DNA of 29,130 nt from a virus, in IMG/VR virus record IMGVR_UViG_3300047357_000385, positions 1 through 29,130 of that record. One strand, written 5' to 3'. The notes below the pieces were generated by a model, which had not been told where the DNA came from, did not search any database, and saw only the letters and a program-made list of their open reading frames with translations. Numbering within the stretch: the first letter of the stretch is position 1; every line of letters begins with the position of its first letter. A program made the position numbers and the translations under genes. Below are positions 395-27,543 of the stretch, piece by piece.

Positions 395-1287
395 TGAAGA
401 ATATTGCAGTTGTACTTCGAGGACACTTACGAACATGGAGTTATAATTCTCCAGTTGTATTTGATTTCTTTGATAGTATTGCAGAAAATGTAGATTACTA
501 TTTGTTTACATGGAAAACACCAGATTTAAAACAACATCTAATAATTAATTCATTCGACGATGCTGGCAAAACACCTGTGTTTTCGTTAGCAGTAAATCCA
601 CAAGAAAGTTTATATACTTCTTGGAGTGGACCTGCACTACTTTCTACACTAGCGGCACCGCATATAAGACATAATCATCATCAGACACCATACGATGCTG
701 TTTTCGAAACTAGATTCGATGTACTTACTACTAGAGTACCTGATATTCCAGTTACGCCTATTGCAGAAAATACTTGGTATACAAACTCTTTTACAAACTT
801 AGTTGATAGATACGGAAATCGTAATGTAGGAATGAAAGATCATTTTCTTGCAGGCACAGTAGATACTTATTGTACTATGGCTGATAGAGTTGTTATACCA
901 GCATCAGAAACAAAAGAGTGCCATGTAGATATGTTAGAGTTTGCTAAAAGCAGAAATATAAAAGTATCCAATAGTTTAAAATGGGTCAACACAATGATGA
1001 GTAGGCCTTCAGATAAGTTTAGAGTACACGATCCTTTTGCATGGGTTAATCCACACCAGATAGCGATAGATGATCCAAGTATACCAGTATGGGAAGAGGC
1101 AACAATAGAAGAAAGAATAGATATGCTTGTACGAAGTGACATTGAGTGGAATGACTACATAACAGACAATGGAAATATTGGTGTAGGTCGACCAGGAGAT
1201 GCATTAACTCCAGAGTTACAAGAATACAAAAGAAGATTGGATTCAGGTGAATCTATGATGGGTTTGACAGACCTATTGTTTGATTGA
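391..1287 (+). CDS. Glycosyltransferase-like protein (298 aa)
   Basis: The N-terminus, KNIAVVLRGHLRTW, resembles phage and bacterial proteins annotated as putative glycosyltransferases that start with a beta-strand and a GHLRT motif. The segment YDAVFETRFDV (about residues 101-111) looks like the (T)RxD metal/nucleotide-sugar region of GT-A folds. The start overlaps the upstream stop by 4 bases and is preceded by AGAGAGAA, a usable ribosome binding site. No signal peptide or membrane segment is seen, so a cytoplasmic role in modifying glycans is inferred. The sugar donor and acceptor cannot be told. The last codons overlap the -35 box of the next promoter. It could also be a non-catalytic relative. 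Confidence 0.5.
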   Translation: MMKNIAVVLRGHLRTWSYNSPVVFDFFDSIAENVDYYLFTWKTPDLKQHLIINSFDDAGKTPVFSLAVNPQESLYTSWSGPALLSTLAAPHIRHNHHQTPYDAVFETRFDVLTTRVPDIPVTPIAENTWYTNSFTNLVDRYGNRNVGMKDHFLAGTVDTYCTMADRVVIPASETKECHVDMLEFAKSRNIKVSNSLKWVNTMMSRPSDKFRVHDPFAWVNPHQIAIDDPSIPVWEEATIEERIDMLVRSDIEWNDYITDNGNIGVGRPGDALTPELQEYKRRLDSGESMMGLTDLLFD

Positions 1288-1312
1288 CAAACAACGGAGA
1301 TTATAGTATAAT
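1284..1312 (+). promoter_or_regulatory. Consensus sigma-70 promoter; start codon falls at predicted +1
   Basis: TTGACA at 1284-1289 and TATAAT at 1307-1312 are separated by exactly 17 bp, a perfect match to the bacterial housekeeping consensus. The predicted transcription start, 7 nt after the -10 box, is base 1319, which is also the A of the ATG of the next gene. A GGAG lies at 1296-1299, but it would not be transcribed and is too far away to serve as a ribosome binding site. Confidence 0.85.
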
Positions 1313-1318
1313 ATCATT

Positions 1319-1633
1319 ATGGGACAGTATACAGATAAAGTTATGGAATACATGGAAATCATGGAATACATCGAAGAAGGCGACAAGATTTCTGCTTTAG
1401 AAGCAGGCGGTGGCCGAATGACTAAATGGTTTAACCATGGTGGAACACATATTGAATTTTTGCGTGATGGCATTGAGCACGATGGTGTAGTGTACAATAA
1501 GGGCGATGTTATTGAAACTGGACCACTAGATGATCTATATATTCATTATAACGAGAAATACAACAATGTAACGCCGTTATTTGAAAGTATTAGAAAACTA
1601 TTTAGGAAATCAGACGATGGCGATCAGAGTTGA
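1319..1633 (+). CDS. Small unknown protein (104 aa), probably leaderless
   Basis: No family is recognised. The protein is acidic at the start, with a repetitive Met/Glu/Tyr stretch encoded by the near-repeat ATGGAATAC...ATGGAATAC at about 1343-1369, and ends in a mixed-charge tail. The first ATG lies exactly at the predicted +1 of a perfect sigma-70 promoter, so the mRNA would have no 5' leader. No Shine-Dalgarno site is seen before this ATG or before the later in-frame ATGs (residues 9, 12, 15). Its end overlaps the next gene by 17 bases and contains that gene's AGGAAA ribosome binding site. An early regulatory or host-takeover role is possible but only a guess from the promoter. Confidence 0.6.
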   Translation: MGQYTDKVMEYMEIMEYIEEGDKISALEAGGGRMTKWFNHGGTHIEFLRDGIEHDGVVYNKGDVIETGPLDDLYIHYNEKYNNVTPLFESIRKLFRKSDDGDQS

Positions 1634-4553: not shown

Positions 4554-6893
4554 TTAAATGCCTGCTAGTTGCTTTAACTCGTTAATTGCAACATCAATTG
4601 TGTTTTCAACTGCTTCGTCAACTATGTCTTCAATCACTTCTGATTGTTCTTCAACTGGATCACAGTCACATTCACCTGGCTCACATGGGCAATCTACCAT
4701 TCCGCATTGTGGACACTTCTCGCCACCTTCGTCTATTGCTTCGTCGCCGTATTCTTTTTGTATTTGATCGTAGTCGTATTGGCCTTTGTATTCAGCATCA
4801 AATTCTTCTTTAGACATGTCCATTGCGTCTTGGATAATGTCTTTTAATCTGCCTTCATTTACACCAAACTCATCTCTTATGCTAGATAGATCTAAACTTT
4901 CTTTTTCAAATTCAGCATCGTCTTCCATATCTAGTACTGGTACCATTGCATCATCATCGTATTCTTTTTCATCTTCGTCGTCAGTGTCTAATTGCATTGG
5001 CTCTACATCAATTTGCTTATCTATCTCAGTAGATTTAACTAAATCCATATTATGTATTGCATTGTTTAAAATCTTAAGAGCAAATGATTTATCTTCTGGC
5101 TCTAGTTCCATAATATTACGGCTATCTTCTAACTGTCTTACAATTGGACTAAGTCTATCGCTTATTGCTAAACCTTCTGCGTCATTAGATATACGAGCAT
5201 TAATTTCACCAAACATTAAATCTGGTCTTTTTGCAGTAAACTTTAAGAAAACTTCTTTTTTAATTGCTGGATCATTTAAGTCAGCATCTTCTGGGAATTG
5301 ATTAGCAATACTTTTAGCTCGTTGACTGCTTGGTATAGATTTACCGTCTACTTTCATTCCTTTTAAAGTGATATCTGTAAATTCTGCTTTTGCAGGATCA
5401 GCCGCTGCTGCATTTGCAGGTCTTGCTTCAGCATCTTTACGATCTTTTGGAGAGATTGTTAAAGGTGCATCATCATCTTTTTTACCTGCCGCATTAGATT
5501 TCTTCCACTTACGGTAAGCTGCACGTTCTTTACTTGTTTTAGGTCTTTCGCCTTTGTCAAAGTCTGGCATAGGTGCTTCTTCTATTCCTGATAAACTAGT
5601 TAATCTATCTAATTCTTCTTGCATACCTACTGAATCTTCAGTGTTTCCTTCTAGACTTGCTTGGCCTTCTTCTTGCATGCCTTGCTCAGTAAACTGTACA
5701 TCAAAGCCTACTATTTTAGATATTTCTGCTTCAAAACCTGAATCGGTGTATACTGTCCATGGACCATCATGCGAAACACTAACATGTGCATAATCATCTT
5801 CGTCCATGTCTTTATCTATAGCAACTTCTGTAACATTTACTGACTCAGGGTTTTTACCATCTTCGTCCCAAATGCTATCACCTCTTAATGAGATTGGCTT
5901 GTTAACAGGAATGACTTTTTCACCTTCTTCTGGTTGCTCTGGCTGTTCGCCTTCTGGTGCTACTGCTTCTGCTTCTAATTCAACACTTTCGTATTCTTTG
6001 TGATCTGCATCAGCAACTACTTGTTCTATATAACCGTGAACTACTTCATCTCTGTCGTCGTCCATATGTAAGCCATGGTCCATTGCAAACTCAGTCATTT
6101 CCTGATCAAGTTCTTGTTCGCTTATGCCCATTGCTTTTGCTAACTGCTGTTCGCCTTGTTCATATGCTGTAAGTAATTCGTCATACATTTCATCTTCTCT
6201 AGATGGTTCCATTGCAGGGTCAAAACTTTCCATAACAGGCTCTAAACCTGCAAGTTTTCTAATTCTATTAATTTCTTCTTTCATTTCATTTTGCCCTGTA
6301 ATTTTATTGTATATTAGTTCAAATATTTTTGGATCAAAGTTTCCAAATTGCTTAGTGTATACTTTTTCAGCACTTTCTTTATCTGGAGCATTCTTTAATG
6401 CATCTCTAAAAGCACTAGCACTTGCAATTTCATCACCTGTTTTAATAGTTGGTGCAAGTGTTATGTATCCTCTTTCAGCCATTGGCTTTGGATCCGTTCT
6501 ATATGTATTTATCTTCTGATAGTACTTTGGCTTTGGTTCTCCGCGAACGGTCATATCCAAATCAGTCTCAGGATCTACATTATTAAAAGGAAATCTGTCT
6601 AAGTCTTTCTCACCAACAGCAAAAATTATAACAGTATTGTCCTCATCAAAAGGATAATCATCTTTGTGATAAGGTCTTTTTGCTAGTAAAACTTTACTTG
6701 GATCAATGCCGTGTGCATTGGCTATCATTTGCTTTTCTTTAAAGTTAAAAGGTGATTTACCACTTTCTACTTTGTCACTGGTTCCAATATATACATCAGC
6801 TTCTGGAAACTGAGTTTGTAATTGGCTGTATACTTCTGCATGATGCGAAAGCATTGGCTGGAATCTACCTGGATAAATGATAACCTGTTTCAT
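4554..6893 (-). CDS. Large acidic mosaic protein with degenerate nucleotidyltransferase domain (779 aa)
   Basis: Residues 1-200 form a cytidylyltransferase-fold domain: IIYPGRFQP near the start and SASAFRDAL (158-166) in place of the family's ISSTxxR motif. The usual HxGH (in FHxGH) reads MLSHH at residues 14-18, so only the last His remains and activity is doubtful. The rest is very acidic and largely low complexity. It holds three copies of the LAGL motif (206-217, 426-437, 769-779), the first two preceded by Met as if former N-termini. A Cys cluster, CPQCGMVDCPCEPGECDCD (727-745), may bind zinc. The size, acidity and late promoter fit an internal virion or scaffold-associated protein, which is inference. 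Confidence 0.75.
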   Translation of the reverse strand: MKQVIIYPGRFQPMLSHHAEVYSQLQTQFPEADVYIGTSDKVESGKSPFNFKEKQMIANAHGIDPSKVLLAKRPYHKDDYPFDEDNTVIIFAVGEKDLDRFPFNNVDPETDLDMTVRGEPKPKYYQKINTYRTDPKPMAERGYITLAPTIKTGDEIASASAFRDALKNAPDKESAEKVYTKQFGNFDPKIFELIYNKITGQNEMKEEINRIRKLAGLEPVMESFDPAMEPSREDEMYDELLTAYEQGEQQLAKAMGISEQELDQEMTEFAMDHGLHMDDDRDEVVHGYIEQVVADADHKEYESVELEAEAVAPEGEQPEQPEEGEKVIPVNKPISLRGDSIWDEDGKNPESVNVTEVAIDKDMDEDDYAHVSVSHDGPWTVYTDSGFEAEISKIVGFDVQFTEQGMQEEGQASLEGNTEDSVGMQEELDRLTSLSGIEEAPMPDFDKGERPKTSKERAAYRKWKKSNAAGKKDDDAPLTISPKDRKDAEARPANAAAADPAKAEFTDITLKGMKVDGKSIPSSQRAKSIANQFPEDADLNDPAIKKEVFLKFTAKRPDLMFGEINARISNDAEGLAISDRLSPIVRQLEDSRNIMELEPEDKSFALKILNNAIHNMDLVKSTEIDKQIDVEPMQLDTDDEDEKEYDDDAMVPVLDMEDDAEFEKESLDLSSIRDEFGVNEGRLKDIIQDAMDMSKEEFDAEYKGQYDYDQIQKEYGDEAIDEGGEKCPQCGMVDCPCEPGECDCDPVEEQSEVIEDIVDEAVENTIDVAINELKQLAGI

Positions 6894-6898
6894 AACTA

Positions 6899-7438
6899 CT
6901 ATTTATCAATAATCCAAAAGCCTAATTCACCAATTTCTATGTGCTGTGGTTGTTCTATTGCAAATATAATGATGTCAGCACATTCTTGAGTCGTTAGTTT
7001 TGGTTTATCTACCATGCCGACTCTAGGAGTATCAATATATCCCGGATTTACATTTATAATTCGACATAGCCTGTGGTTCATCTGTTGCATTATGCCTGCT
7101 TGATGAGAAAGGGCGGCTTTGTATCCTGGATATCCTGAAAGATTGAACGAATGTCCTGGATATTTACTTGAACTTGATATGTTTACTATAGTTTTTGTGC
7201 TGTCATTTTGCCAAATGTCGAAAACATGCATTAATAGTTTCATTTGAGCATCTTCGGCGTATGCATTATTGATAAAAACATCACATCGTGCTATTCCATT
7301 TAATAATAAGTTGTTATTTTTAGTTATATCAAAACCGTTAGATCTACTAAAGCCACGACATTTGTGATTTTTGCTAAGATTGTCAAATAATGCTTGTCCA
7401 ATTCCATTAGTGTGTCCAGTAATAGCAATTTTACTCAT
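6899..7438 (-). CDS. Short-chain dehydrogenase/reductase (179 aa)
   Basis: The Rossmann nucleotide-binding motif is TGHTNGIG (residues 7-14; family TGxxxGIG). INNAY matches the NNAG element. NISSSS followed by YPGYK gives the catalytic Ser and YxxxK. NPGYIDTP matches the PGxxxT element after the active site. At 179 residues it is shorter than the usual 240-250, with compressed middle segments but all key motifs, so a working NAD(P)-dependent oxidoreductase is likely. Substrate unknown. GGAG precedes the start, which overlaps the upstream oxygenase gene by 8 bases. Together with that gene it may modify a sugar, lipid or small metabolite. Confidence 0.82.
   Translation of the reverse strand: MSKIAITGHTNGIGQALFDNLSKNHKCRGFSRSNGFDITKNNNLLLNGIARCDVFINNAYAEDAQMKLLMHVFDIWQNDSTKTIVNISSSSKYPGHSFNLSGYPGYKAALSHQAGIMQQMNHRLCRIINVNPGYIDTPRVGMVDKPKLTTQECADIIIFAIEQPQHIEIGELGFWIIDK
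6900..6907 (-). promoter_or_regulatory. T4-type late promoter, GATAAATA, 6 nt before ATG
   Basis: Read on the minus strand, GATAAATA is followed by GTAGTT and the ATG of the 779-residue protein. No ribosome binding site lies between. The box overlaps the final codons (GAT AAA TAG) of the upstream dehydrogenase gene, so part of the match could be coding chance, but it repeats the arrangement seen at four other minus-strand gene starts. Confidence 0.6.
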
Positions 7439-7961
7439 ATCTAACTCCTACAATATGGAATCTTGAGGTTGTACCCCAATTTATAGCACTGTGCAATTGC
7501 GAAGTATTAACTTCGTACGCATTTCCTAATGCCATATGGTGAAATTTTACAGTTGTTTCTAAACCATTTGCTGGTTTATCACCATAATAGCAAAAATACG
7601 AGTCATCATTTGTTTCTACAGGTATATGCAGTCTTTTATTAACTCTTTCGCTGTAAGCATCTGTGTGTATAGTGTAGCATTGCCCGGGAGGGATATGCAA
7701 CAACCGCCACCTGTAATAATTATTGTACTTAGTAATAAGTTCTGCAATGTAAGTACCTTCTAAATCTTTGTTTATTTGACTGTACATGCGTTCTGGCTTA
7801 CTTAGTTGGAGAGCTGAACCAATAGAACATGTCCAATCGTTCTCTCCTGTAACACTTGTAAGAGATATTTGCCTTTCGTCCCAAAAATTATTAGCACCTA
7901 ACAACAAACTCATGTCTTCGTACAGTCTATTTGTATCTATGTCAGTTGCTATAATTTCCAT
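7431..7961 (-). CDS. 2OG-Fe(II) oxygenase, aspartyl/asparaginyl hydroxylase-like (176 aa)
   Basis: The iron-binding facial triad is visible: HTD at residues 99-101 after LLHIPPGQCYT, and the distal His157 in QLHSAINWG, followed by Arg167 (SRFHIVG), which would hold 2-oxoglutarate. This order is typical of the aspartyl/asparaginyl beta-hydroxylase-like branch. Such enzymes hydroxylate proteins or small molecules and are frequent in marine T4-like phages. The start (TAATG) overlaps the stop of the upstream gene by one base, with no clear ribosome binding site, which suggests translational coupling. It is more distant from the tandem oxygenase pair at 11975-13272 than those two are from each other. 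Confidence 0.78.
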   Translation of the reverse strand: MEIIATDIDTNRLYEDMSLLLGANNFWDERQISLTSVTGENDWTCSIGSALQLSKPERMYSQINKDLEGTYIAELITKYNNYYRWRLLHIPPGQCYTIHTDAYSERVNKRLHIPVETNDDSYFCYYGDKPANGLETTVKFHHMALGNAYEVNTSQLHSAINWGTTSRFHIVGVRYE

Positions 7962-8632
7962 TATAATATTAGCGATGGAACTTGTTTATAATGTGTGTCC
8001 CATCCGAATAAGAATTTTGTTTTCCACTCTCTTTGATCGAACAAGCCGAGTAAGTCCCATTCTTGTTTCCTATCGTACATTTCTTCTGCTTTGTCAAACA
8101 AGTTATCATTGCCAACTATAACACTTTCAATTGCGTTAGTTGAGCTTCGTAATGATGACATATCAGAAAATTCATATTCTAGATTTACAAATTCAAACAA
8201 AGCATCGTCTTTACTTTTTGCATACAGACGACATGTTACACCCCACTTAGGTCTTACCTGAGTAAGTAATCTAGCACCGTGATAATTAAATTTTGTTGCA
8301 TATTCTATTAATTGAGATCTAGCATCGCCTTTGAAGTTAGAACGGAACTGTGTATAACTGTGTGAAATATGAAACCAGTCAGTATTTTTGCTTTCGTTTT
8401 TGTCGTCTAAATCAAAAGATAAATGTTCAGCAGATTGTTTTACTTTGTTTTCGAATCCTGCATCTATGTGCAATCCAGCATTCTCGTAATACTGCTGTTC
8501 AACTTCGCATAACGCAAATCCATTGGGGTCTGCGTAATCAAATTCGTGTCTCATTATGCCTGCAGGACCTGGGTCGATGGCATCAGTAATACATAATCTA
8601 TCTGGGTAAATAAAATCGTTTGCTTTGAACAT
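7961..8632 (-). CDS. Unknown late protein, paralog of the upstream neighbour (223 aa)
   Basis: No named family is recognised. The protein shares a pattern with the adjacent 210-residue protein (8654-9286): a YHGA/YHGYA segment, then TQVRPKWGV (against TQMRPKWGI), an acidic FxxxxxEY/FEWDD stretch, and a KQEWDLLGLFDQREWK block (against KDEWHHLDFFAQSKWK). The pair therefore arose by tandem duplication and diverged strongly. It has no signal peptide or membrane segment and is rich in aromatic residues. ATG lies exactly 5 nt after a late box. It heads a unit with an oxygenase and a dehydrogenase. A structural role is possible. Confidence 0.65.
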   Translation of the reverse strand: MFKANDFIYPDRLCITDAIDPGPAGIMRHEFDYADPNGFALCEVEQQYYENAGLHIDAGFENKVKQSAEHLSFDLDDKNESKNTDWFHISHSYTQFRSNFKGDARSQLIEYATKFNYHGARLLTQVRPKWGVTCRLYAKSKDDALFEFVNLEYEFSDMSSLRSSTNAIESVIVGNDNLFDKAEEMYDRKQEWDLLGLFDQREWKTKFLFGWDTHYKQVPSLIL

Positions 8633-8637
8633 GCATG

Positions 8638-8645
8638 TATTTATG
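8638..8645 (-). promoter_or_regulatory. T4-type late promoter, CATAAATA, 5 nt before ATG
   Basis: On the minus strand CATAAATA is followed by CATGC and the ATG at 8632. If transcription starts where T4 late promoters do (6th base after the box), the A of ATG is the first base of the mRNA. No ribosome binding site is present. Confidence 0.75.
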
Positions 8646-8653
8646 GGGAAATA

Positions 8654-9286
8654 CTAGCGCCATGCAACCATTTTGAACTGTTCTTGTCCTACGCCAAAGT
8701 AATCTGCTTTCCATTTACTTTGTGCAAAAAAGTCTAAATGATGCCATTCATCTTTGCGTTTAATAAGTTGTTGTGCGGCATCATCAAAGTCTGTGTTGTT
8801 AATAACTTTTTCTATTTCTATTTGCTTTTCAGCAACAACATCATATTCAAAGTCGTCCCATTCAAAATGAAACACTTCAAACACATCAGGATATTTTACA
8901 TAGTCTATACTGATGTCTATGCCCCACTTAGGACGCATTTGTGTTATCTTGTGTATGAGTGGTAAGCCTTCTGCATGGGCCATTAGTTGTTCTAGTGCAT
9001 AACCATGGTAACCTTTGCGTTCGTATAGATCTGCGTGATTGAGATGCACACCGCCAATGCTGTTATCAATATCTTCGTACCATTGTGTTTTGAGACTGTT
9101 ACGCCATCTAGTATTGCCTACGAAGCCATTATTTACTTCTGCATACATGTGTTCTAGTGGAGTTAAGTCGTAACCGTTTTGATCAAAGTTTGCAAGATGC
9201 CTTGCATGAGGTATAAAACCAATATCAATTGCGGTGCCCCATGTAGGGCGAGGATTTAATTTGTGACTAGTTCTTTTTAGTTGCAT
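8654..9286 (-). CDS. Unknown late protein, paralog of the downstream neighbour (210 aa)
   Basis: This protein is the tandem partner of the 223-residue protein at 7961-8632, sharing the TQMRPKWGI motif, the GYHGYALEQLM segment, the acidic FHFEWDDFEYD strand and the RKDEWHHLDFFAQSKWK block. No family name can be given. The start follows the TAG stop of the upstream 704-residue gene directly (TAGATG), so the two are probably coupled; no strong ribosome binding site is seen. The N-terminus, LNPRPTWGTAID, again contains a (R)PxWG motif, so the RPKWG element may be an internal repeat within the protein. Confidence 0.65.
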   Translation of the reverse strand: MQLKRTSHKLNPRPTWGTAIDIGFIPHARHLANFDQNGYDLTPLEHMYAEVNNGFVGNTRWRNSLKTQWYEDIDNSIGGVHLNHADLYERKGYHGYALEQLMAHAEGLPLIHKITQMRPKWGIDISIDYVKYPDVFEVFHFEWDDFEYDVVAEKQIEIEKVINNTDFDDAAQQLIKRKDEWHHLDFFAQSKWKADYFGVGQEQFKMVAWR

Positions 9287-11401
9287 CTACCATTTACGAC
9301 ATGACCAATAACGAGCTTTTGTCTTAGGTCCTGGGTTATCACAGTTATGTCTTGCTCTAAAACTTTTTCTTGCTTTAGGATTACTTTTTCTAATCTTCAT
9401 TGTTTTACCTTTAGCACTACTTCCGCCGTGTCCAAAGTTAACTTTTTTAACATTGCCTGTTTTAGGATCTTTAACATAAACTTTAAACTTCTTAACATCG
9501 CCTTGCATAGGTTTGTTTAGTTTAACTTTACGACCTTGGTATTCTGCTTCAAATGTATCTTGCTCACATAAACTGTAGCCTAGTACACCAAATATATCAT
9601 TGAAGTCTTCGTTGTCTTCTAGTGTTATTTCATCAGTGTGACCATATGACTCTTCAATAGAAGCCATTACTGGTCTGCCTTGATTCTTTTTAGTTTTATA
9701 ACTAGGCGAAGTTTTTTTCATTTGATTCTTACGAATTCTCATTAAGTCTTTGCCTAACTTAGTTTTAACATCTGCTTCTTCGCCGTCTTGTGACTTAAAC
9801 TTTTTAGTGTTCTTGTCAAATTGGAATTCTTTGCCTCTTTGATCTTTTACTGTGTCTGCAACACCAACATCTATGTATGCTCTTTCTGCTAGTCTGACAT
9901 CATACAGCATCTTTGCAAGATTTCTAATCATGTCTGCTACATCTGGATTAGTGCTTTCGAGTTCTGCGTATAGCTCTGGTGCTGACATTTCAGTCCAACG
10001 GTTTTCGTCACCTAATGCTTTTGCTAACATTTTAGCAACCATTGCATCGTCACTGCTTTCGTCAATAGATTCAATTTTCTTGCACTTGTTTACACGCTTG
10101 CCTTTGTTTTTGCCTGTACCTGGTTGTGTACCAACCTTCTTGTGTCCAGGCCAGCATTTTTCTGCACCGGCTTCTGTTACTGGTTCTTCATCATTCATTG
10201 TATCGAAAGTCTTAAAGAACTTACCGCCAATTTCTCTGGCTTTTTGTTTGCTGATTTCTGGATACATTTGTCTAAGTATGCTTGGTAATTCCATAGCATT
10301 AAATCTACCAGTTTCAACATAATTTTTGTGCAACTGTTTCATTGCACCTGCTAATATTTCATCTGAAGGTTGTGGCTTCTTAGCAAGTTCTGCTTTTTGT
10401 TTGGATCTCTCATCGTGATCTTTGATTTCTTTCCAGCTCACAGTATCATCAGCATATTGCATTTCGCCTTCGTCACAACCGTAATTGCCCCAGCCGTCAC
10501 AACTATCTTCTTCCTCTTCATAGTCGCCGTCTAGGTATCCTGAACCAGCACATTCTGGACATGTACCATCTTTGATATAATCGTCTTCGAATCCGCCCGT
10601 TAATGCATCTTGTAATTGATCGTATGCTTCTTTTCTTTGCTCAGCATCATACCAGTTATCTGGTTCACCAATCATTCCTTCTTCTGCTTCTTTAATTGAT
10701 TCTTCTTTTATTTGTTTTATGTGGAGTAGACCATGGTCCGGACTATTCTCATTCCAATAATATCGTGCGCCGTCAAAATCAGTAATGTCTGCGTCAGAAA
10801 CTTTATATTCACCATGACCAGTTATACTATTTTTAGCATCTTCTCTGCTACTTTTACTCATTTCAAAACAACGGCCATCTCTGTCATAACCTAACCCCCA
10901 ATAACCAATGCCAACATCAGCAAGTGTGAGTTCTTTGTTGCCGTCAATTATATGTGTGTTGTCGTCAATTCTCAGTTCATCAAACATGTCTTGCATATTT
11001 GCAGATTCTTTTAGTCTTGCTGAATGTTGCATTGCAGCTTTCTCAGAATCAAATGTGCCATGATCTTCGCCATTAATTTTTAAGTGAAATTTAGGTTTCA
11101 TTGAATCGCCGGATTTAGTAAGTTCAATTTCCTTACCATCGCGATTCATAATCATTGGATTTGCTTTTGCTTCGTCTAGTCCGACATAACGCCAGTTCCA
11201 AGCACCAGCACCTATGTAGCCGTCTTGTACATAGCCTGCCATGTACATAGCATCATCGCTATCGATACCTTTTTCTTCAGCCCATTTCATAATGTAATAT
11301 GAACGTTGGCTGTCTGCGACACCTGCAAATTTATCTACAACCTTAGGATCTGCTTTTGGATTGTCGTCGTAATAACCTTCTGTGATATTATGTATTTTCA
11401 T
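9287..11401 (-). CDS. Large mosaic late protein with ITE site, zinc-finger-like and basic C-terminal modules (704 aa)
   Basis: The N-terminus MKIHNITE|GYY carries an I-T-E|G site at residues 6-9, like T4 prohead-protease sites on capsid-targeted internal proteins. Residues 281-312 hold CPECAGSGYLDG and a later Cys pair, like a DnaJ-type CxxCxGxG zinc element. Residues 409-441 (VTEAGAEKCWPGHKK... NKCKK) begin with another V-T-E|A site. The last 85 residues are strongly basic and end in RARHNCDNPGPK and YWSCRKW, a conserved-looking Cys/His/Trp module that I associate with marine T4-like phage structural proteins. The pieces look like several small proteins joined. An internal head protein, possibly cleaved during maturation, is inferred. 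Confidence 0.75.
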   Translation of the reverse strand: MKIHNITEGYYDDNPKADPKVVDKFAGVADSQRSYYIMKWAEEKGIDSDDAMYMAGYVQDGYIGAGAWNWRYVGLDEAKANPMIMNRDGKEIELTKSGDSMKPKFHLKINGEDHGTFDSEKAAMQHSARLKESANMQDMFDELRIDDNTHIIDGNKELTLADVGIGYWGLGYDRDGRCFEMSKSSREDAKNSITGHGEYKVSDADITDFDGARYYWNENSPDHGLLHIKQIKEESIKEAEEGMIGEPDNWYDAEQRKEAYDQLQDALTGGFEDDYIKDGTCPECAGSGYLDGDYEEEEDSCDGWGNYGCDEGEMQYADDTVSWKEIKDHDERSKQKAELAKKPQPSDEILAGAMKQLHKNYVETGRFNAMELPSILRQMYPEISKQKAREIGGKFFKTFDTMNDEEPVTEAGAEKCWPGHKKVGTQPGTGKNKGKRVNKCKKIESIDESSDDAMVAKMLAKALGDENRWTEMSAPELYAELESTNPDVADMIRNLAKMLYDVRLAERAYIDVGVADTVKDQRGKEFQFDKNTKKFKSQDGEEADVKTKLGKDLMRIRKNQMKKTSPSYKTKKNQGRPVMASIEESYGHTDEITLEDNEDFNDIFGVLGYSLCEQDTFEAEYQGRKVKLNKPMQGDVKKFKVYVKDPKTGNVKKVNFGHGGSSAKGKTMKIRKSNPKARKSFRARHNCDNPGPKTKARYWSCRKW

Positions 11402-11406
11402 AACAG

Positions 11407-11414
11407 TATTTATC
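11407..11414 (-). promoter_or_regulatory. T4-type late promoter, GATAAATA, 5 nt before ATG
   Basis: On the minus strand GATAAATACTGTTATG places the start codon of the 704-residue protein exactly 5 nt after the late box, at the predicted first transcribed base. The ATG choice is supported independently by the N-terminal ITE motif, shared at the same residue position with the 242-residue late protein. Confidence 0.8.
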
Positions 11415-11428
11415 TTCTAAATACAAAC

Positions 11429-11644
11429 TTATGCTTCTATGTTTTTTGGCTTCCAGACAATTTGAATGCCTCTACGCTCTAACTCACGTTTACATTTCTG
11501 TTTTATTTTTGGTTTACCGTTAGCACTGTTTATATATTCAAACAAAACTTCTTTTGATTGATTTTTTATATAGTAGTGTTCAGTTTTTACTATTTTTGTA
11601 CCACGCTGTACAGTTTTCGCACTTGGCTTAAATTTAGTTGGCAT
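11429..11644 (-). CDS. Small basic conserved phage protein (71 aa)
   Basis: The protein is Lys/Arg-rich (TKFKPSAKTVQRGTKIVKTE, then KIKQKCKRELERRG). I recall similar short basic proteins in marine T4-like phages but know no function. The start codon overlaps the stop of the upstream 56-residue gene by one base and has AAGGAAG at good spacing. It is the last gene of the unit that begins at 13272. Nucleic-acid binding or a small virion component would fit the charge, as inference only. Confidence 0.65.
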   Translation of the reverse strand: MPTKFKPSAKTVQRGTKIVKTEHYYIKNQSKEVLFEYINSANGKPKIKQKCKRELERRGIQIVWKPKNIEA

Positions 11645-11814
11645 TATCTTCCTTGCCCCCTATAAACTGTAGTACTTCTCTTTTTACTTTTATTCATGGT
11701 AGACATGCCGACTTTGACACGCCTACCTCTACCGCCTACACCTTGCGATGTACACTTTTTACCTGTGCCATTTACTAATGACTTATTTTGGTTTCTTCTA
11801 CTTGCTTTTGCCAT
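11644..11814 (-). CDS. Very basic small protein (56 aa)
   Basis: The start MAKASRRNQNK at 11814 is chosen because AAGGAT lies just before it and the stop of the membrane-protein gene overlaps it (TAATG). An in-frame upstream ATG would run through that other gene. The protein is full of Lys, Arg, Gly and Ser (GVGGRGRRVKVG, KSKKRSTTVYRGQGR), with a single Cys. It has no hydrophobic segment. It resembles short basic proteins found in related marine phages but has no known function. DNA or RNA binding, or a packaged internal protein, is possible from charge alone. Confidence 0.65.
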   Translation of the reverse strand: MAKASRRNQNKSLVNGTGKKCTSQGVGGRGRRVKVGMSTMNKSKKRSTTVYRGQGR

Positions 11815-11978
11815 TATCCTTCTTTGGTTGCTATTGCCCAGATACCATATGCTAAACCAGCCCATGCTGCAATTTTAACAATGCCACCAAACAATATGAT
11901 TGCTAATGATCCAGCGATGATAACACCACCGTCCCAACTTGTTCTTTCTTTTACTCTTGCCTTAATCCAATCTATCAT
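11814..11978 (-). CDS. Small membrane protein (54 aa), holin-like
   Basis: This gene is shorter than common ORF cut-offs, but it has a strong GAGAGGAA site 5 bases before ATG and fits exactly between its neighbours: its start overlaps the upstream stop (ATGA) and its stop overlaps the next start (TAATG). The N-terminus MIDWIKARVKERTSWDGG is amphipathic and positively charged. It is followed by a long hydrophobic part, VIIAGSLAIILFGG then IAAWAGLAYGIWAIA, which could form two short membrane helices joined by a Lys-containing turn. A holin or another small membrane protein acting late is possible. No lysin gene is adjacent (the SleB-type gene is at 19759), so the holin idea is weak. Confidence 0.7.
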   Translation of the reverse strand: MIDWIKARVKERTSWDGGVIIAGSLAIILFGGIVKIAAWAGLAYGIWAIATKEG

Positions 11979-12625
11979 GTTTTATTCCTCTCTAGTTTTC
12001 TTATTCTATGAACAACTTCCTCGTATATCATTTCTAAAAATGAAATTCTTGCAAGTATTCGTGTTGTGCTAGGTTTTACCCTATGCCAGTGAGATGTATT
12101 TAATATCCCAGCCGTATATTTATATAATCCGTGATCCATAAACTCGCATTCTGAACCATCTTCGGTAATTACTAGGTTAATACAGCAATTAACTGGAAAA
12201 TTACTACTTTCTGCAGGTTTTACTAAATCGTGATTAGCACTATTGCCTTCTTTTGCTAATATTTCTTTTGGGTTAAATTTGATATCACTTAGTATGTTAT
12301 CTCTGTGCCACTCGTAGTCAGCACCACCGTCAAGATAAAAATACATACAGTGTGTCCAACCAGTTTCGCCAAACCATTCCTTAAAATTATCATAAAACTC
12401 TGCTAGTACTGGAGTGTTTTCGTGTACATACTGAAAGTCTAAAGTAACATCTGTTTTTCCAGAAGTTTTTGGTATAGGAAGTCTAAATCTATTTGCTTCA
12501 TTTTCTCTCATTGCAAGAGCTTCTTCTTTTAGTCTTTCTCTACTAGGCCAAAACTCGTGATTAATGTGTGTAAATGGCACTGAAGCCCAAGCAGGACCTC
12601 TGTGAACTCTGTTTCCGTGCATCAT
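11975..12625 (-). CDS. 2OG-Fe(II) oxygenase, tandem copy 2 (216 aa)
   Basis: WHRDN gives the HxD iron ligands (His107, Asp109), and LNTSHWHRV gives the distal His181, followed by Arg189 for 2-oxoglutarate. The segment NFPVNCCINLVITED is nearly the same as in the upstream copy. The two proteins have equal length and aligned motifs, so they are a tandem duplication. The family resembles phage aspartyl/asparaginyl hydroxylase-type oxygenases; substrate unknown. AGGAGA precedes the start, which overlaps the upstream stop (ATGA). Compared with copy 1 it has a different loop after HxD (residues 111-142), where substrate choice may lie. Confidence 0.8.
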   Translation of the reverse strand: MMHGNRVHRGPAWASVPFTHINHEFWPSRERLKEEALAMRENEANRFRLPIPKTSGKTDVTLDFQYVHENTPVLAEFYDNFKEWFGETGWTHCMYFYLDGGADYEWHRDNILSDIKFNPKEILAKEGNSANHDLVKPAESSNFPVNCCINLVITEDGSECEFMDHGLYKYTAGILNTSHWHRVKPSTTRILARISFLEMIYEEVVHRIRKLERNKT

Positions 12626-13272
12626 TGTAATTTTTTCTCCTGTCTTCTGACTTTGTGTACAACTTCTTCGTATAATAAATCATAAAAAGATATTCTTGCA
12701 AGTACTCTATACTTGGTTGGATATACTCTATGATATTCTGATGTGTTTAATATTCCACACTCATATTTGTATCCAACTATTTCCGAAGGGTTGAATTCAA
12801 CTGTTGTTTGATCGTCTGTAATAACTAAATTAATACAGCAATTCACAGGAGAGGTATCATAAGGTCTTCTAAAACCATCGGACGTTCCTTCTACTACACG
12901 ACCACTTTGTACATTATCTACATGCCAACTATATGTTGCACCAGCATCAATGTGGAAGTAGTGGCATGTAGTCCTTCCTAGGTCACTGCCAATCCAGTTT
13001 AAAAAATTTTCATAATATTCTTTTAGCAAAGGTGTTTTTTCTTGCATTCTAGACCAATCTAAAGTTACACCTGTAGCACCTTGTGTTAGATGTGGGCGAC
13101 TATTATCAAATTTTAAGGGTAGTTGAAATCTATGATCGTTATCTTCTCTCACAGACATTGCCTCGGCAAGCATACTTGATTTATCTGGCCAAAATTCATG
13201 CGTAATATGAGTAAAGGGTTCTTCGGTCCAAGCAGGACCTTTTGACAATCTGTTTCCATAATACCTAGCCAT
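12622..13272 (-). CDS. 2OG-Fe(II) oxygenase, tandem copy 1 (216 aa)
   Basis: SWHVDN supplies His117 and Asp119, LNTSEYHRV supplies His181, and Arg189 follows as the likely 2-oxoglutarate contact. SPVNCCINLVITDD is shared with copy 2. The N-terminus MARYYGNRLSKGPAW aligns with copy 2 (MMHGNRVHRGPAW), which supports this ATG as the true start. That ATG lies exactly 5 nt after CATAAGTA, with no ribosome binding site, so the transcript would be leaderless. It heads a five-gene late unit (to 11429). Possible roles include modifying host or virion proteins; nothing in the sequence decides. Confidence 0.82.
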   Translation of the reverse strand: MARYYGNRLSKGPAWTEEPFTHITHEFWPDKSSMLAEAMSVREDNDHRFQLPLKFDNSRPHLTQGATGVTLDWSRMQEKTPLLKEYYENFLNWIGSDLGRTTCHYFHIDAGATYSWHVDNVQSGRVVEGTSDGFRRPYDTSPVNCCINLVITDDQTTVEFNPSEIVGYKYECGILNTSEYHRVYPTKYRVLARISFYDLLYEEVVHKVRRQEKKLQ

Positions 13273-13277
13273 ACAAC

Positions 13278-13285
13278 TACTTATG
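13278..13285 (-). promoter_or_regulatory. Late-type promoter variant, CATAAGTA, 5 nt before ATG
   Basis: On the minus strand CATAAGTA is followed by GTTGT and the ATG at 13272. It differs from NATAAATA by one base (A to G at position 6), the same change as in the box at 15589-15596. The spacing to ATG is identical to the other boxes, and no Shine-Dalgarno site is present. Confidence 0.6.
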
Positions 13286-13302
13286 ACAACAGAGTTAAAT
13301 AA

Positions 13303-13587
13303 TTACTTTTTTTTGTTTTCTAGTTTAGCAAGTCTTGCTTCGAGATCATCAATTTTTGCAGTAACTTTAGGATAGCGTTTGCGCCATGCATTTTCATCTT
13401 CTGCTAACCATGTCCATCCCCAGCGTTGCACTAGGTAATCTAAGAACTGGTCAAATTTACTATAACACCATAAACCTGCTCTTGTTCCTTTGAACCATGC
13501 TAAGAATGCCGCACCTAAAAGTGCGCCTGCAATTGCAGTGTAGATCCACAGCCTGTCGCTGAGCATCGCTGATATAGTGTCTAACAT
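13303..13587 (-). CDS. Small membrane-anchored protein with C-terminal coiled coil (94 aa)
   Basis: A hydrophobic helix spans about residues 12-32 (LWIYTAIAGALLGAAFLAWF). It is followed by an aromatic-rich part (YLVQRWGWTWLAEDENAWRK) and a short charged coiled coil (IDDLEARLAKLENKKK). AAAGGA lies 5 bases before ATG. I recall close relatives in marine T4-like phages, without known function. The order (short periplasmic or cytoplasmic N-tail, one helix, coiled coil) could fit a spanin-, holin- or assembly-related membrane role. It is the last gene before the 13285 promoter, downstream of the structural genes at 13597-15487. Confidence 0.7.
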   Translation of the reverse strand: MLDTISAMLSDRLWIYTAIAGALLGAAFLAWFKGTRAGLWCYSKFDQFLDYLVQRWGWTWLAEDENAWRKRYPKVTAKIDDLEARLAKLENKKK

Positions 13588-13596
13588 AATAGTCCT

Positions 13597-14325
13597 TTAT
13601 TTTCCTGCTTTTTTAGCAAGGTATGCTTCAACATCGTCCCTATCAGAATCTTCTAAATATTTAATTTTTAGATTTACTAATGTTCTTTGGTCATTTGCTT
13701 CAACATACAAATCCATGTTTTTGAGGTGGTATGCAGCAACCTCGTCGCCTGCAGACGCCGCTTGTGATAGTTCTTTGCCTAGCGGAGTATCCTTCGCTGA
13801 TGGCATACTTAACCCAAGGGCAGCAATCAAGGCTGCAGCACCCATTGCTTTACGGATATTGCCGTTGCCTTCTTCCAAATCTGTGAGAACAACTCTTTTA
13901 CCGTCTTGAAACTCTATGTGTTTACCTAGTACTTTCATTAAATCTGCGTACTCTTCTTCAGTAGGATTTTTACTTTTCCATGTATCTAGAAATTTGTCAA
14001 TCATACCGTTAACGCCATGTTTGCCTTGTAAAACTAAAGGACCTTCATTCATTTGAGAACTGATATCTGACTTTTTGTTTTTTCTACTGTAGTCTTTTGG
14101 TGACTTGTGAGCACCAGCACCACTCTTGTTGCGAGAATGTTTTGCTACTGGGTTTGGTTGATTTTTGTTAGGCTCATAAGGCTTAGGCTTTTGAGGTTTG
14201 CTTTCTCCGACAAGTTTACCTTGCATAGGATGAGGGCTTTCGTGACCTGAGGAAGGTTTTATCTTCTTCGGTTTCTTGTCACTAGCCCTTGCTACCTTTG
14301 CTTCTGTAATATCGGAAATGTTCAT
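13597..14325 (-). CDS. Putative internal head protein with ITE cleavage-like site (242 aa)
   Basis: The N-terminus MNISDITE|AKVA has an I-T-E|A site at residues 6-9, the same position as in the 704-residue protein. Residues 15-95 are basic, Pro/Lys/Asn-rich and probably disordered. A second possible site is QMNE|GPLV near residue 93. The C-terminal half is helical, with a hydrophobic stretch MGAAALIAALGLSM (about 164-177) and an acidic end. T4 internal proteins carry a short capsid-targeting leader that is cut by gp21 after Glu; this protein fits that plan, including the basic DNA-binding-like body. No ribosome binding site is evident. The gene follows the two structural paralogs. Confidence 0.65.
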   Translation of the reverse strand: MNISDITEAKVARASDKKPKKIKPSSGHESPHPMQGKLVGESKPQKPKPYEPNKNQPNPVAKHSRNKSGAGAHKSPKDYSRKNKKSDISSQMNEGPLVLQGKHGVNGMIDKFLDTWKSKNPTEEEYADLMKVLGKHIEFQDGKRVVLTDLEEGNGNIRKAMGAAALIAALGLSMPSAKDTPLGKELSQAASAGDEVAAYHLKNMDLYVEANDQRTLVNLKIKYLEDSDRDDVEAYLAKKAGK

Positions 14326-14331
14326 AGTCTA

Positions 14332-14871
14332 CTATGGACCAGTTTGATCTAAATCAGGTCCTGTGTGTTTAATTCTGATTCTTGCACTACCTGCTGTAGC
14401 ACCGCCTTGAGTTACATAGGCGTAAATATCTGTTTCAGCAGTATAAGTGTGCTGTGTTTCTCCTATTGCTTGAGTTCCGTCTGGAGTCCAACCTTGAGAA
14501 AATAATCTATCGTTATCTGCAGCATCACCAATAGTAATATCAGTGAACCCATCATAGTCTGACCAGTTACCTGCAGTCTTTTCAATCATTGCACCTAGTA
14601 TAGTAGTGTTTGCTTTTGCAGTAAATAGATATTGATTGCCACCGTCATGAGTAACAGTCTCATTAACTGTCATAATACGATAGCCTGTTTCAGTTTCTAA
14701 TTGAGCTAAAGTAACAGCATGTTCAGGATCAGTACCTGGAGACATGATCATTATTTCAGCATTACCATCTTTATCTTGTAGTGCTACGGAGTTGCCGGAA
14801 CCTACAATTTTAGGTCCCTGCTTTCCTAACTCAACTGTTTGTCCAACACCTTTCAAATTGTATTGCTTCAT
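14332..14871 (-). CDS. Structural/surface protein, tandem copy 2 (179 aa)
   Basis: The N-terminus KQYNLKGVGQTVELGKQG repeats that of the neighbouring 201-residue protein (KKYNLKGVGANVELGKQG). The rest is rich in Thr, Gly, Asp and Asn with alternating polar/hydrophobic residues, as in beta-rich virion proteins. The segment HAVTLAQLETETGYRI aligns with HAITKAQLDDVSGDLI in the other copy. Marine T4-like phages carry such proteins, annotated as structural; decoration, whisker or fibre-base roles are possible. AAGGAAC lies before ATG. The shared N-terminal module probably attaches both proteins to the same virion site, while the remaining part differs. Confidence 0.75.
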   Translation of the reverse strand: MKQYNLKGVGQTVELGKQGPKIVGSGNSVALQDKDGNAEIMIMSPGTDPEHAVTLAQLETETGYRIMTVNETVTHDGGNQYLFTAKANTTILGAMIEKTAGNWSDYDGFTDITIGDAADNDRLFSQGWTPDGTQAIGETQHTYTAETDIYAYVTQGGATAGSARIRIKHTGPDLDQTGP

Positions 14872-14881
14872 AGTAAGTTCC

Positions 14882-15487
14882 TTATGCTATGTTACCTAGG
14901 TCGTTGTTTACATCTGCTGAACTTTGGATGCCACCGTAATCTGTAACAGTAATAACACCACTTGATATGACTAAACTAACTGAACCAACGCCTGCTGTAG
15001 CAGTACCTGGTGTTACTTTTAGTGTTAGTGTATCTGCTGAATCATATTCATATTGATATTGACTATGATACTGTCCTACGAGTTTAATATCTACATCACC
15101 GGATCTCATGTATCTAGATGCTGATCCGCTATCACCAACTTCTACAAAAGTTGCAGTGTTGTTATCTGCTGTCCATGCTGTTGGGATATCAACTGTTACG
15201 CCAATAACTCTAGAGCCTGAAGTTACATTTGCTAAGTTTACAGTGCCGGTATCATATTCGAATTCGGTAGTAAAATGCTGTATTAGGTCACCACTTACAT
15301 CGTCAAGTTGTGCCTTAGTAATAGCATGTCCTGCTAGAGTAGCATTCGCAATGCTTACTTTTTGTAATGCATCTGTATTGTTGAAGAATGAAACGGCGTC
15401 CGATGTACCGCTGATATAAGAACCTTGTTTACCAAGTTCTACATTAGCGCCTACGCCCTTTAAGTTATATTTTTTTATGTCTGCCAC
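14882..15487 (-). CDS. Structural/surface protein, tandem copy 1 (201 aa)
   Basis: The start is GTG at 15487 (V/M-ADIKKYNLKG), supported by AGGAA 10 bases upstream and by the N-terminal match to copy 2. The protein is Thr/Ser/Gly/Val-rich and beta-like, without membrane segment. The N-terminal module (residues 5-70) is shared with the 179-residue neighbour; the C-terminal part is different. It heads the late structural unit, behind a late promoter at 15530-15537 with a leader of about 37 bases. Unlike the other unit heads it has both a leader and a ribosome binding site, as expected for an abundant virion protein. Confidence 0.75.
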   Translation of the reverse strand: MADIKKYNLKGVGANVELGKQGSYISGTSDAVSFFNNTDALQKVSIANATLAGHAITKAQLDDVSGDLIQHFTTEFEYDTGTVNLANVTSGSRVIGVTVDIPTAWTADNNTATFVEVGDSGSASRYMRSGDVDIKLVGQYHSQYQYEYDSADTLTLKVTPGTATAGVGSVSLVISSGVITVTDYGGIQSSADVNNDLGNIA

Positions 15488-15529
15488 GGTATTTGATTCC
15501 TGCTGATAGAGTTGTTGTTATGTTCTATA

Positions 15530-15537
15530 TATTTATC
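15530..15537 (-). promoter_or_regulatory. T4-type late promoter, GATAAATA, with normal leader
   Basis: On the minus strand GATAAATA stands 42 bases before the GTG start at 15487. Transcription would start near 15524, giving a leader of about 37 bases that contains AGGAA. This is the conventional arrangement and contrasts with the zero-leader boxes elsewhere on this strand. Confidence 0.7.
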
Positions 15538-15588
15538 AAAAAATTAAAATGTGTTAATCAAAAATATTATTATTGAGGTGTATTTGTA

Positions 15589-15596
15589 TATAAGTA
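15589..15596 (+). promoter_or_regulatory. Late-type promoter variant, TATAAGTA, 5 nt before ATG
   Basis: TATAAGTA is followed by CTTAT and the ATG at 15602. The box differs from TATAAATA at one base. The 5-nt distance equals that on the minus strand. The only purine-rich site (GAGGTG, about 15575-15580) lies upstream of the box and would not be in the transcript. Confidence 0.55.
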
Positions 15597-15601
15597 CTTA
15601 T

Positions 15602-15790
15602 ATGAATTTGATGGTTATAGACGAAAAATATTGCATTGTTGACAACGACACCGTCATAATGACTGCTAACAGCACAGAAGAGCTGTATAGCAAAGCACTA
15701 CAGATATTACATGCATTTGAGAGCCCTGTAACTAACACTGTTCCAACACCTGAACAAACACAACAAGCAATAGACTTACTAACAAGTTAA
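15602..15790 (+). CDS. Small unknown protein (62 aa), probably leaderless
   Basis: The start MNLMVIDEKY at 15602 is chosen because of its exact distance from the TATAAGTA box. An in-frame GTG at 15551 would add 17 hydrophobic residues and has no ribosome binding site. The protein begins with a beta-like segment (VIDEKYCIVDNDTVIM), then a helix, and ends in a TPEQTQQAIDLL helix. No family is recognised. It lies just before the strong promoter of the structured RNA and tRNA-Glu unit, and on the opposite strand to the late structural genes that start 65 bases away. Confidence 0.55.
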   Translation: MNLMVIDEKYCIVDNDTVIMTANSTEELYSKALQILHAFESPVTNTVPTPEQTQQAIDLLTS

Positions 15791-15797
15791 AAATAGG

Positions 15798-15826
15798 TTG
15801 ACATAACACCTACTTCTTAGTATAAT
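15798..15826 (+). promoter_or_regulatory. Perfect sigma-70 promoter for RNA/tRNA unit
   Basis: TTGACA (15798-15803), 17 bp, TATAAT (15821-15826). The predicted start is 15833, which is the A of an ATG. It would drive a structured RNA followed by tRNA-Glu. Confidence 0.88.
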
Positions 15827-15832
15827 ATGTGC

Positions 15833-15904
15833 ATGTTGCAAACTCGAGTGGTATTTCGTAAATTGGGTCAATCCCTAAGTGTACCGTTTGCAATAGATGT
15901 TTAA
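15833..15904 (+). CDS. Possible leaderless 23-codon leader peptide
   Basis: Starting with the A of the predicted +1 base, the frame ATG TTG CAA ACT ... GAT GTT TAA encodes MLQTRVVFRKLGQ and ends in SVPFAIDV. There is no ribosome binding site, so it could only be read as a leaderless message. The same bases can fold into a stem (TTGCAAAC with GTTTGCAA), so the region may be an RNA structure rather than a gene, or both. The placement of ATG at +1 is the same as at 1319. Low confidence as a protein. Confidence 0.3.
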   Translation: MLQTRVVFRKLGQSLSVPFAIDV

Positions 15905-20971: not shown

Positions 20972-20979
20972 CATAAATA
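20972..20979 (+). promoter_or_regulatory. T4-type late promoter, CATAAATA
   Basis: CATAAATA lies 45 bases before the nuclease start. Transcription would begin near 20985, leaving a 32-base leader with GGGAGAAAC, a good ribosome binding site. This is a normal leadered late arrangement in a gap between genes. Confidence 0.6.
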
Positions 20980-21016
20980 CTCGTACATAGGTAACAGTAC
21001 AAACAGGGAGAAACAC

Positions 21017-21490
21017 ATGTACGAGTATAAAGCGAATGTCGTCAAAATTGTTGACGGCGACACCGTCGATGTAAATATCGACTTAGGGTTTGGTGTTTGG
21101 ATGATGGACGAAAGAGTTCGCATCATGGGCATTGATACACCCGAATCAAGAACCAGGGATAAAGTAGAAAAACTTTTTGGCTTGGCAGCAAAAACAAAAT
21201 TAAAAGAAATACTAGGTAAGTCTTGCATACTTAAAACTCAGATTGCCAGAGATGGTGAAGATATGAGAGGTAAGTTTGGTAGAGTACTTGGTGACTTTAT
21301 AGCACTAGACGGTCGTATGGCAACAGACATATTAGTCGAAGAAGGACATGCAGTAGCATACTTCGGTGGCAGTAAAGAAGAAGTTCAAGCAAAGCATATG
21401 GTTAATAGAGATAAGTTATTGCGTGAAAAAGTTATACCTAAAGCAGAGTATGACAAAGCCGTTAAGTTAATGGAAAAGAAAAAGAAGTAG
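21017..21490 (+). CDS. Thermonuclease (SNase family, 157 aa)
   Basis: ANVVKIVDGDTVDVNIDLGFG opens the OB-fold with the calcium-binding DGDT. RIMGIDTPES corresponds to the R...DTPE element (catalytic Arg and Glu, eight residues apart), and FGRVLGDF supplies the second catalytic Arg in the position of YGR of staphylococcal nuclease. GHAVAYFGGS closes the core. Such nucleases cut DNA and RNA; without a signal peptide this one would act in the infected cell, perhaps on host DNA or in phage DNA processing. The Lys-rich tail (KLMEKKKK) may aid nucleic-acid binding. GGGAG precedes the start. Confidence 0.9.
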   Translation: MYEYKANVVKIVDGDTVDVNIDLGFGVWMMDERVRIMGIDTPESRTRDKVEKLFGLAAKTKLKEILGKSCILKTQIARDGEDMRGKFGRVLGDFIALDGRMATDILVEEGHAVAYFGGSKEEVQAKHMVNRDKLLREKVIPKAEYDKAVKLMEKKKK

Positions 21491-22165: not shown

Positions 22166-22244
22166 AAGTGGATGGAAACATTAAGGCATCGACCCACTAT
22201 AAATATTCCGCACTAATGGCCTTCTAATTATTTAGGAGATACAA
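22166..22244 (+). promoter_or_regulatory. Structured queD leader containing a consensus late promoter
   Basis: The transcript from the sigma-70 promoter would begin at the first helix. AGTGG (22167-22171) pairs with CCACT (22194-22198). Bases in the loop can pair with the 3' side: GGAA (22174-22177) with TTCC (22206-22209), CATTA (22179-22183) with TAATG (22214-22218), and AAGGC (22183-22187) with GCCTT (22219-22223); the last two exclude each other. These crossing helices would make an H-type pseudoknot. TATAAATA (22198-22205) inside the leader is a perfect T4 late box with a predicted start at 22211. TTAGGAGAT is the ribosome binding site. No known riboswitch consensus could be confirmed. 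Confidence 0.45.
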
Positions 22245-22721
22245 ATGAATAAGAGATTTTATTCAGGTAAAACATATTCGCATTCAACTGGACACAGTTG
22301 TGCGTTTAGACAATGGCGAGCTGATAGTCATTGCAATTTAATTCATGGCTATGCTTTGCAGTTCGAATTTACTTTCGGTGGAGACGAACTTGATGAGCGT
22401 AACTGGATAGTAGACTTTGGTGGTTTGAAGCCACTTAAAGAATGGTTGAAGCACATGTTTGATCATACTTACTTAGTAGCAGAGAATGACCCAGAAATGG
22501 AAACTATTCAAATGTTACAAGACAAAGGTCTAATTGATATGCGAGTAGTATCGCATACAGGTTGTGAAAGATTTGCTGAAATGGCTTTTGACAAAGCAGA
22601 TGAAATTGTTAAAGAATTAACAAATGGAAGATGTTGGGTACAAAAGACTACAGTAAGAGAACACGAGCATAATAGTGCAACTGTTGAACTTAACGACCAT
22701 ACTAAAGTAAAATTTAGTTAA
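22245..22721 (+). CDS. queD: QueD / 6-pyruvoyl-tetrahydropterin synthase-like enzyme (158 aa)
   Basis: The family pattern is visible: STGHSCAF (His17, zinc ligand), HCNLIHGYALQF (Cys30 catalytic, His34 zinc ligand), WIVDFGGLKPLKEW, MFDHTYL (Asp73-His74, catalytic pair) and REHEHNSATV (Glu). QueD makes carboxytetrahydropterin from dihydroneopterin triphosphate, an early step towards preQ0, queuosine and 7-deazaguanine DNA modifications. The second His of the usual HGH is Tyr36 here, so one of three zinc ligands is changed. No queC, queE or folE is in the window. Two promoters, early and late type, lie upstream. Confidence 0.82.
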   Translation: MNKRFYSGKTYSHSTGHSCAFRQWRADSHCNLIHGYALQFEFTFGGDELDERNWIVDFGGLKPLKEWLKHMFDHTYLVAENDPEMETIQMLQDKGLIDMRVVSHTGCERFAEMAFDKADEIVKELTNGRCWVQKTTVREHEHNSATVELNDHTKVKFS

Positions 22722-24033: not shown

Positions 24034-24038
24034 ATTGG

Positions 24039-24046
24039 TATTTATC
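24039..24046 (-). promoter_or_regulatory. T4-type late promoter, GATAAATA, 5 nt before ATG
   Basis: On the minus strand GATAAATACCAATATG places ATG 5 nt after the box. GGTGA just upstream overlaps the box and could be a weak ribosome binding site if transcription came from further away, but no upstream gene on this strand is near. Confidence 0.72.
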
Positions 24047-27508: not shown

Positions 27509-27543
27509 AGTTATAAACTAAATTTTTCACACACAGGAAATAA

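Follow-up and report, generated by a model that had tools for sequence, protein, structure and literature searches.

Probable T4-type late promoters with the start codon at the predicted transcription start in a clade of IMG/VR phages

Late transcription of phage T4 is a textbook system. The T4 late box is an 8-bp TATA box recognized by gp55 together with gp33 and the gp45 clamp, and the late RNA starts at about the sixth base after the box. Late promoters with the NATAAATA box are known from T4-like phages (PMC2984593). The box described here is the same as that of the late promoters of the cyanophages S-PM2, Syn9, and P-SSM2 (PMC2984593), and it resembles the T4 late promoters in its 8-bp TATA-type form one helical turn before the start, in the lack of a -35 element, and in single-base deviations at some sites (PMC2988020). 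The difference from these phages lies mainly in the distance to the start codon. T4 leaders are long, and none of the 35 gene-proximal boxes of T4 (and 0/9 in KVP40) had 5 or 6 bases between the box and the ATG, spacings hereafter called N5 and N6. The three cyanophages together had 2 close boxes among 61, one at N5 and one at N6, and nearly all of their remaining boxes were ≥15 bases from the ATG. The original prediction that T4 uses leadered late mRNAs thus held, and the same applies to the cyanophages almost throughout. Unlike in T4, G is preferred at -13 in the boxes of the present clade.

Leaderless messages have been described elsewhere. The Thermus phage phiYS40 is also a lytic phage, in which most middle and late mRNAs are leaderless (PMC3594737), but its host is different, an IF2/IF3 change has been reported in it, and it is not known to use a gp55-type box. 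Bacterial leaderless genes of Deinococcus-Thermus and Actinobacteria likewise have a -10 box lying about 12 bp upstream of the start codon (PMC3160421; PMC12340547); those are chromosome genes served by a cellular sigma factor, whereas the present boxes are of the phage late sigma type and are accompanied by a leadered class. The pelagimyophages HTVC008M and Mosig and the methylophage Melnitz show the same N5 placement in weaker form, but they occupy a distant TerL branch, and no leaderless sigma70-type promoters were seen there. We did not find leaderless output from T4-type late promoters in the literature searched, from which subscription papers were excluded. Leaderless phage late mRNAs, -10 boxes at start codons, and T4-type late boxes are therefore known, and it is likely that only their combination is new.

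Late-type boxes of the window

We analyzed the 29,130-base IMG/VR virus record IMGVR_UViG_3300047357_000385 (positions 1 to 29,130), hereafter the window, which belongs to a marine relative of T4. A megablast search of the window against phage records gave no match among deposited phages. Among contigs with broad coverage, the closest is G007 (92 kb), which has 32 of the 37 called proteins in common with the window at a mean identity of 74% and carries T4-superfamily TerL, UvsW, UvsX, gp41, and nrdA. The clade sample comprised 13 contigs, the window and 12 relatives from IMG/VR, and comparator phages were added; the genomes have a G+C content of 34–39%. Genes were called with a simple codon-usage caller, boxes were counted as ATAARTA, and for each box the bases up to the first in-frame ATG of the following gene were counted.

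Six boxes had been predicted directly before start codons, and all six were found. On the minus strand, GATAAATA (6900-6907) precedes at N6 the ATG at 6893 of a 779-aa nucleotidyltransferase-like protein (box and start codon, 6891..6907). The same box occurs at N5 or N6 in 13 distinct homologues of this family, the window counted, down to a protein identity of 39%, and a few further homologues lack it. The start codon at 6893 is fixed by a GRFQPML motif near the N terminus, as had been claimed. Also on the minus strand and all at N5 are CATAAATA (8638-8645) before the ATG at 8632 of the gene 7961-8632 (8630..8645), GATAAATA (11407-11414) before the ATG at 11401 of the gene 9287-11401, which encodes 704 aa (11399..11414), CATAAGTA (13278-13285) before the ATG at 13272 of the gene 12622-13272 (13270..13285), and GATAAATA (24039-24046) before the ATG at 24033 of the gene 22834-24033 (24031..24046). 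Homologues of the 8632 gene in L015 and L016 have degenerate boxes (gtaaata/ctaaata) at the same position. The 11401 gene has an identical N5 box in L015 and L020 and belongs to a family (F0) of 13 leaderless genes from 11 contigs; the 24033 gene belongs to a family (F6) of 4 genes from 4 contigs. A homologue of the 13272 gene in L016 (37% identical) has GATAAGTA-N5-ATG, and one scan for relatives of this gene found none. On the plus strand, TATAAGTA (15589-15596) precedes at N5 the ATG at 15602 of a 62-aa gene. This box (15589-15604 with the start codon) is part of the perfect palindrome TATAAGTACTTATA and therefore forms a box on either strand; in L056, the homologous gene has kept ATAAGTA-N5-ATG and lost the palindrome.

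The box alone was not in excess in the window (18 ATAARTA seen, 20.9 expected). ATAARTA-N5-ATG occurred 5 times against 0.57 expected, a number reached in none of 100 dinucleotide shuffles, and the window additionally has one N6 site. The reversed-pattern control gave 0. These results establish the geometry of the boxes and its conservation.

The window also holds leadered promoters. CATAAATA is followed by 37 bases including GGGAG and the ATG at 21017 of a nuclease (20972..21019, plus strand), and TATAAATA by 39 bases including AGGAG and the ATG at 22245 of a QueD-like protein (22198..22247, plus strand). In regards to the minus strand, GATAAATA is followed by 42 bases including AGGA and the GTG at 15487 of a probable structural protein (15485..15537), a member of the leadered class with an alternative start codon and a Shine-Dalgarno-like site. 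The phage peptide deformylase gene (window 2047-2589; L163:7183-7722) is leadered in the window and leaderless in five relatives (family F4). A UvdE-like endonuclease gene is apparently leadered with a Shine-Dalgarno-like site in the window (16145), but in G009 (13154) it apparently has a sigma70-type promoter and no leader; a switch of class between relatives is conceivable for this gene.

Two distance classes and the marks of the inferred start site

The count over the window and its relatives gave N5 as a sharp mode, in agreement with the predicted excess of this spacing over a shuffled control. The 245 gene-proximal boxes of the 13 contigs were distributed as 89 at N5, 16 at N6, 2 at 0–4, 2 at 7–15, and 118 at 16–60 bases. 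The boxes of the clade form two separate classes, close and leadered. The nearly empty zone at 7–15 bases probably corresponds to leaders too short for a Shine-Dalgarno site. When every 7-mer was scanned without bias at distances of 0–29, ATAAATA at a distance of 5 was by far the most frequent over-represented word (72 seen, 0.96 expected). None of the other 20 permutations of ATAAATA exceeded 6, compared with 89 for the real box. The excess survives only two kinds of departure, another base at -12 or a G at -8; an A is required at -6, and no -35 element is present. The ATAA(A/G)TA form of the prediction requires a small correction: ATAAGTA boxes lie mostly away from gene starts (9 of 198 at N5) and are likely weaker candidates than ATAAATA boxes. 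The leaderless genes, 105 in all, belong to 50 sequence families, and the signal is therefore not one copied locus. Among them are genes for a PAAR tip protein, a head-tail adaptor, and virion proteins, which is what one would expect of late genes. In regards to the larger relatives, G002 (268 kb) had 8 of 48 boxes at N5, and G026 (246 kb) had 9 ATAAATA boxes at N5 and none at 0–4 or 6–10.

A Shine-Dalgarno match of ≥4 bases was found before 9% of leaderless genes, compared with 80% of leadered genes, 58% of inner operon genes, and 19% of random ATGs. The predicted lack of this site before first genes and its frequent presence before inner genes thus held clade-wide. The codon at N5 was ATG in 92 cases, GTG in 2, and TTG in none, and 89 of the 92 ATGs open frames of ≥50 codons. 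The absence of a Shine-Dalgarno site and the preference for AUG over GUG and UUG are the properties expected of leaderless messages. The first 40 nt of the leaderless genes are also less structured (-2.0 vs -2.9 kcal/mol, p=4e-4).

Bacterial RNA polymerase usually prefers a pyrimidine at -1 and a purine at +1. A pyrimidine precedes the ATG in 89/89 N5 sites, compared with 191/445 inner genes, and in 42/42 N5 families (p=4e-16); a purine precedes the ATG in 3 of the 16 N6 sites. In 54 of the 106 leadered promoters, in turn, the sixth base beyond the box is an A preceded by a pyrimidine, about twice the usual share (p=1e-9 vs other offsets). This start mark is independent of any ATG there and falls on the same sixth base as in the close class. 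The late-type box is thus TATAAATA-like, with a start mark about 6 bases downstream and without a -35 element, as in a T4-type late promoter. That +1 lies on the A of the ATG, as predicted, is very likely; it is supported by three independent lines, namely the peak at N5/N6 with the gap behind it, the pyrimidine-A mark in the leadered class, and the lack of Shine-Dalgarno sites, with the 5′ ends inferred and no RNA data. The transcription start could possibly lie one base off.

We searched for sigma70-type promoters as TTGAC-N16-18-TATAAT with some hexamer variation permitted. In the window, TTGACA (1284-1289), 17 bases, and TATAAT (1307-1312) precede at N6 the ATG at 1319 (1284..1321, plus strand), and the arrangement is kept before the orthologous gene in G007. 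The clade has 13 such promoters with the ATG at N6, 4 at N5, and 3 at N7, almost none at 8–18, and leadered ones from 19. This N6 is the same design as N5 of the late box, because, counted from +1, the -10 hexamer ends one base further upstream than the late box. The same count gave no such peak in T4, S-PM2, or the pelagiphages. Leaderless output is therefore not confined to the late class, and the label 'late' of the original prediction was too narrow. The placement recurs in the clade before UvsW, an exonuclease-like gene, and others. A further TTGACA-N17-TATAAT-N6-ATG at about 15797-15905 of the window is followed only by a frame of about 23 codons and lies upstream of a tRNA-Glu gene at 16009.

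Late factors and occurrence in other phages

A profile search did not find gp55, gp33, or gp45 on the window or the closest contigs, which are fragments. The best gp45 match on the close contigs (E=0.025) was to an antisense ORF and was unconvincing. The relatives G002 and G026, both with the N5 signal, encode gp55. In G002, gp55 adjoins the capsid and gp46/47 genes, and the close contigs were judged incomplete because these neighbours are also missing from them. The absence of gp55 from the close contigs therefore probably reflects missing parts of the genomes. That the window's own species uses gp55 is inferred, gp55 having been seen only in its relatives G002 and G026.

The window encodes a phage ribosomal protein bS21 (27544..27939, plus strand), a possible but unproven translation partner. 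A role of bS21 in favouring late phage messages has been proposed (PMC9723584). It is encoded by most clade contigs and by HTVC008M, Mosig, and Melnitz, the three tested isolates with the signal, and is absent from six phages without it (T4, KVP40, phiM12, and the three cyanophages). A perfect partnership was rejected, since G002 has the signal without bS21; bS21 therefore remains a lead only. PA5oct has bS21 with 11 pattern matches vs 6 in the reversed control, which also counts against perfect pairing. A ClpX-like gene stands beside bS21 in the window (26222-27939), PA5oct (169742-171161), and G026 (11227-13254; L269). An IF3-like gene was found in one contig only, G026, where it lies between the ClpX-like gene and bS21.

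HTVC008M, Mosig, and Melnitz together had 15 of 108 gene-proximal boxes at N5/N6. All nine N5 ATGs of HTVC008M (6280, 7562, 16007, 18916, 19456, 31132, 49760, 75559, and 142360) are annotated GenBank start codons, and the genes include the gp25 wedge protein, the DNA end protector gp2, a tail-tube-associated baseplate protein, and the tape measure; the gp2 gene is leaderless in all three isolates. The claim of a distinct strategy thus held against T4, but the pattern is not unique to the window phage, since the pelagiphages, G002, and G026 share it. In the TerL tree, the trait occurs on the window/G002 branch and in the pelagiphages and is lacking in the cyanophages and T4/KVP40. The starred branches of this tree force at least 2 changes; two gains or a loss in the cyanophages are both possible.

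Alternative readings and meaning

We consider it very likely (about 0.9) that these phages make leaderless mRNAs from T4-type late promoters and from some sigma70-type promoters, with the 5′ ends and the ribosomal route inferred. In the proposed mechanism, the T4-type late box would end 5–6 bases before the start codon, RNA polymerase would start on the A of the ATG to give a leaderless mRNA, and the ribosome would bind the 5′-terminal AUG to begin translation. Other late promoters of the same genome form a second class and would give a leader of 11–55 bases, usually with a Shine-Dalgarno site.

A chance origin of the boxes, as AT-rich words before start codons or as a relic of base composition, gains some support from the low G+C content of the genomes and from the lack of an excess of boxes alone in the window. 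However, this explanation is all but excluded by the shuffles, the reversed pattern, the permuted boxes, and the unbiased 7-mer scan, and T4 and S-PM2, of similar composition, show 0 and 1. It is also very improbable that the box is an mRNA recognition or processing element near the start codon of a transcript started upstream. This reading has no direct support; the leadered class has the same box far from the ATG with the start mark at the sixth base, and a pyrimidine/A rule is characteristic of transcription starts.

The box could instead be a promoter with translation from an internal ATG that has its own ribosome-binding site, the first AUG being unused or opening a short upstream frame. 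A Shine-Dalgarno-preceded in-frame ATG was present within 31 codons in 16 of the 89 leaderless genes (18%), and a minority of leaderless genes may therefore start inside. This share was not significantly above that of inner genes (11%, p=0.07), the GRFQPML family is conserved from the box-proximal N5 ATG onward, and the invariant pyrimidine before the ATG and the near-absence of GTG would be left unexplained by internal starts, so that we regard this reading as very unlikely for the class. Finally, the element could be the -10 region of host sigma70 or another sigma factor rather than a gp55-type box, in which case the mRNA would still be leaderless. The true sigma70-type promoters of the clade, which likewise put the ATG at +1, and the failure to see gp55 on the closest contigs speak for it. 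The base constraint speaks against recognition of the late-type box by host sigma70 (A demanded at -6, changes permitted only at -12 and -8, no -35 element), the box matches the NATAAATA late box of T4 and cyanophages (PMC2984593), and relatives with the signal encode gp55. We therefore consider this reading unlikely.

Leaderless mRNAs from T4-type late promoters remain the preferred reading, and because a subset of sigma70-type promoters has the same +1 placement, leaderless initiation would be a general design of the phage group. A bolder reading, which is no more than possible, is that a widespread marine T4-superfamily group runs two translation programmes, leadered with Shine-Dalgarno sites and leaderless, from one promoter system and steers ribosomes to the leaderless class by its own factors, bS21 in many and IF3 in one. 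A pelagimyophage study reported that late-promoter prediction failed (PMC7029224), and leaderless placement may, by inference, explain such failed searches. If the preferred reading is true, gene callers that expect Shine-Dalgarno sites would misplace starts in abundant ocean phages. The clade would further provide a natural two-class gene set, with some genes switching class between relatives, in which to ask when a ribosome prefers a leaderless message.
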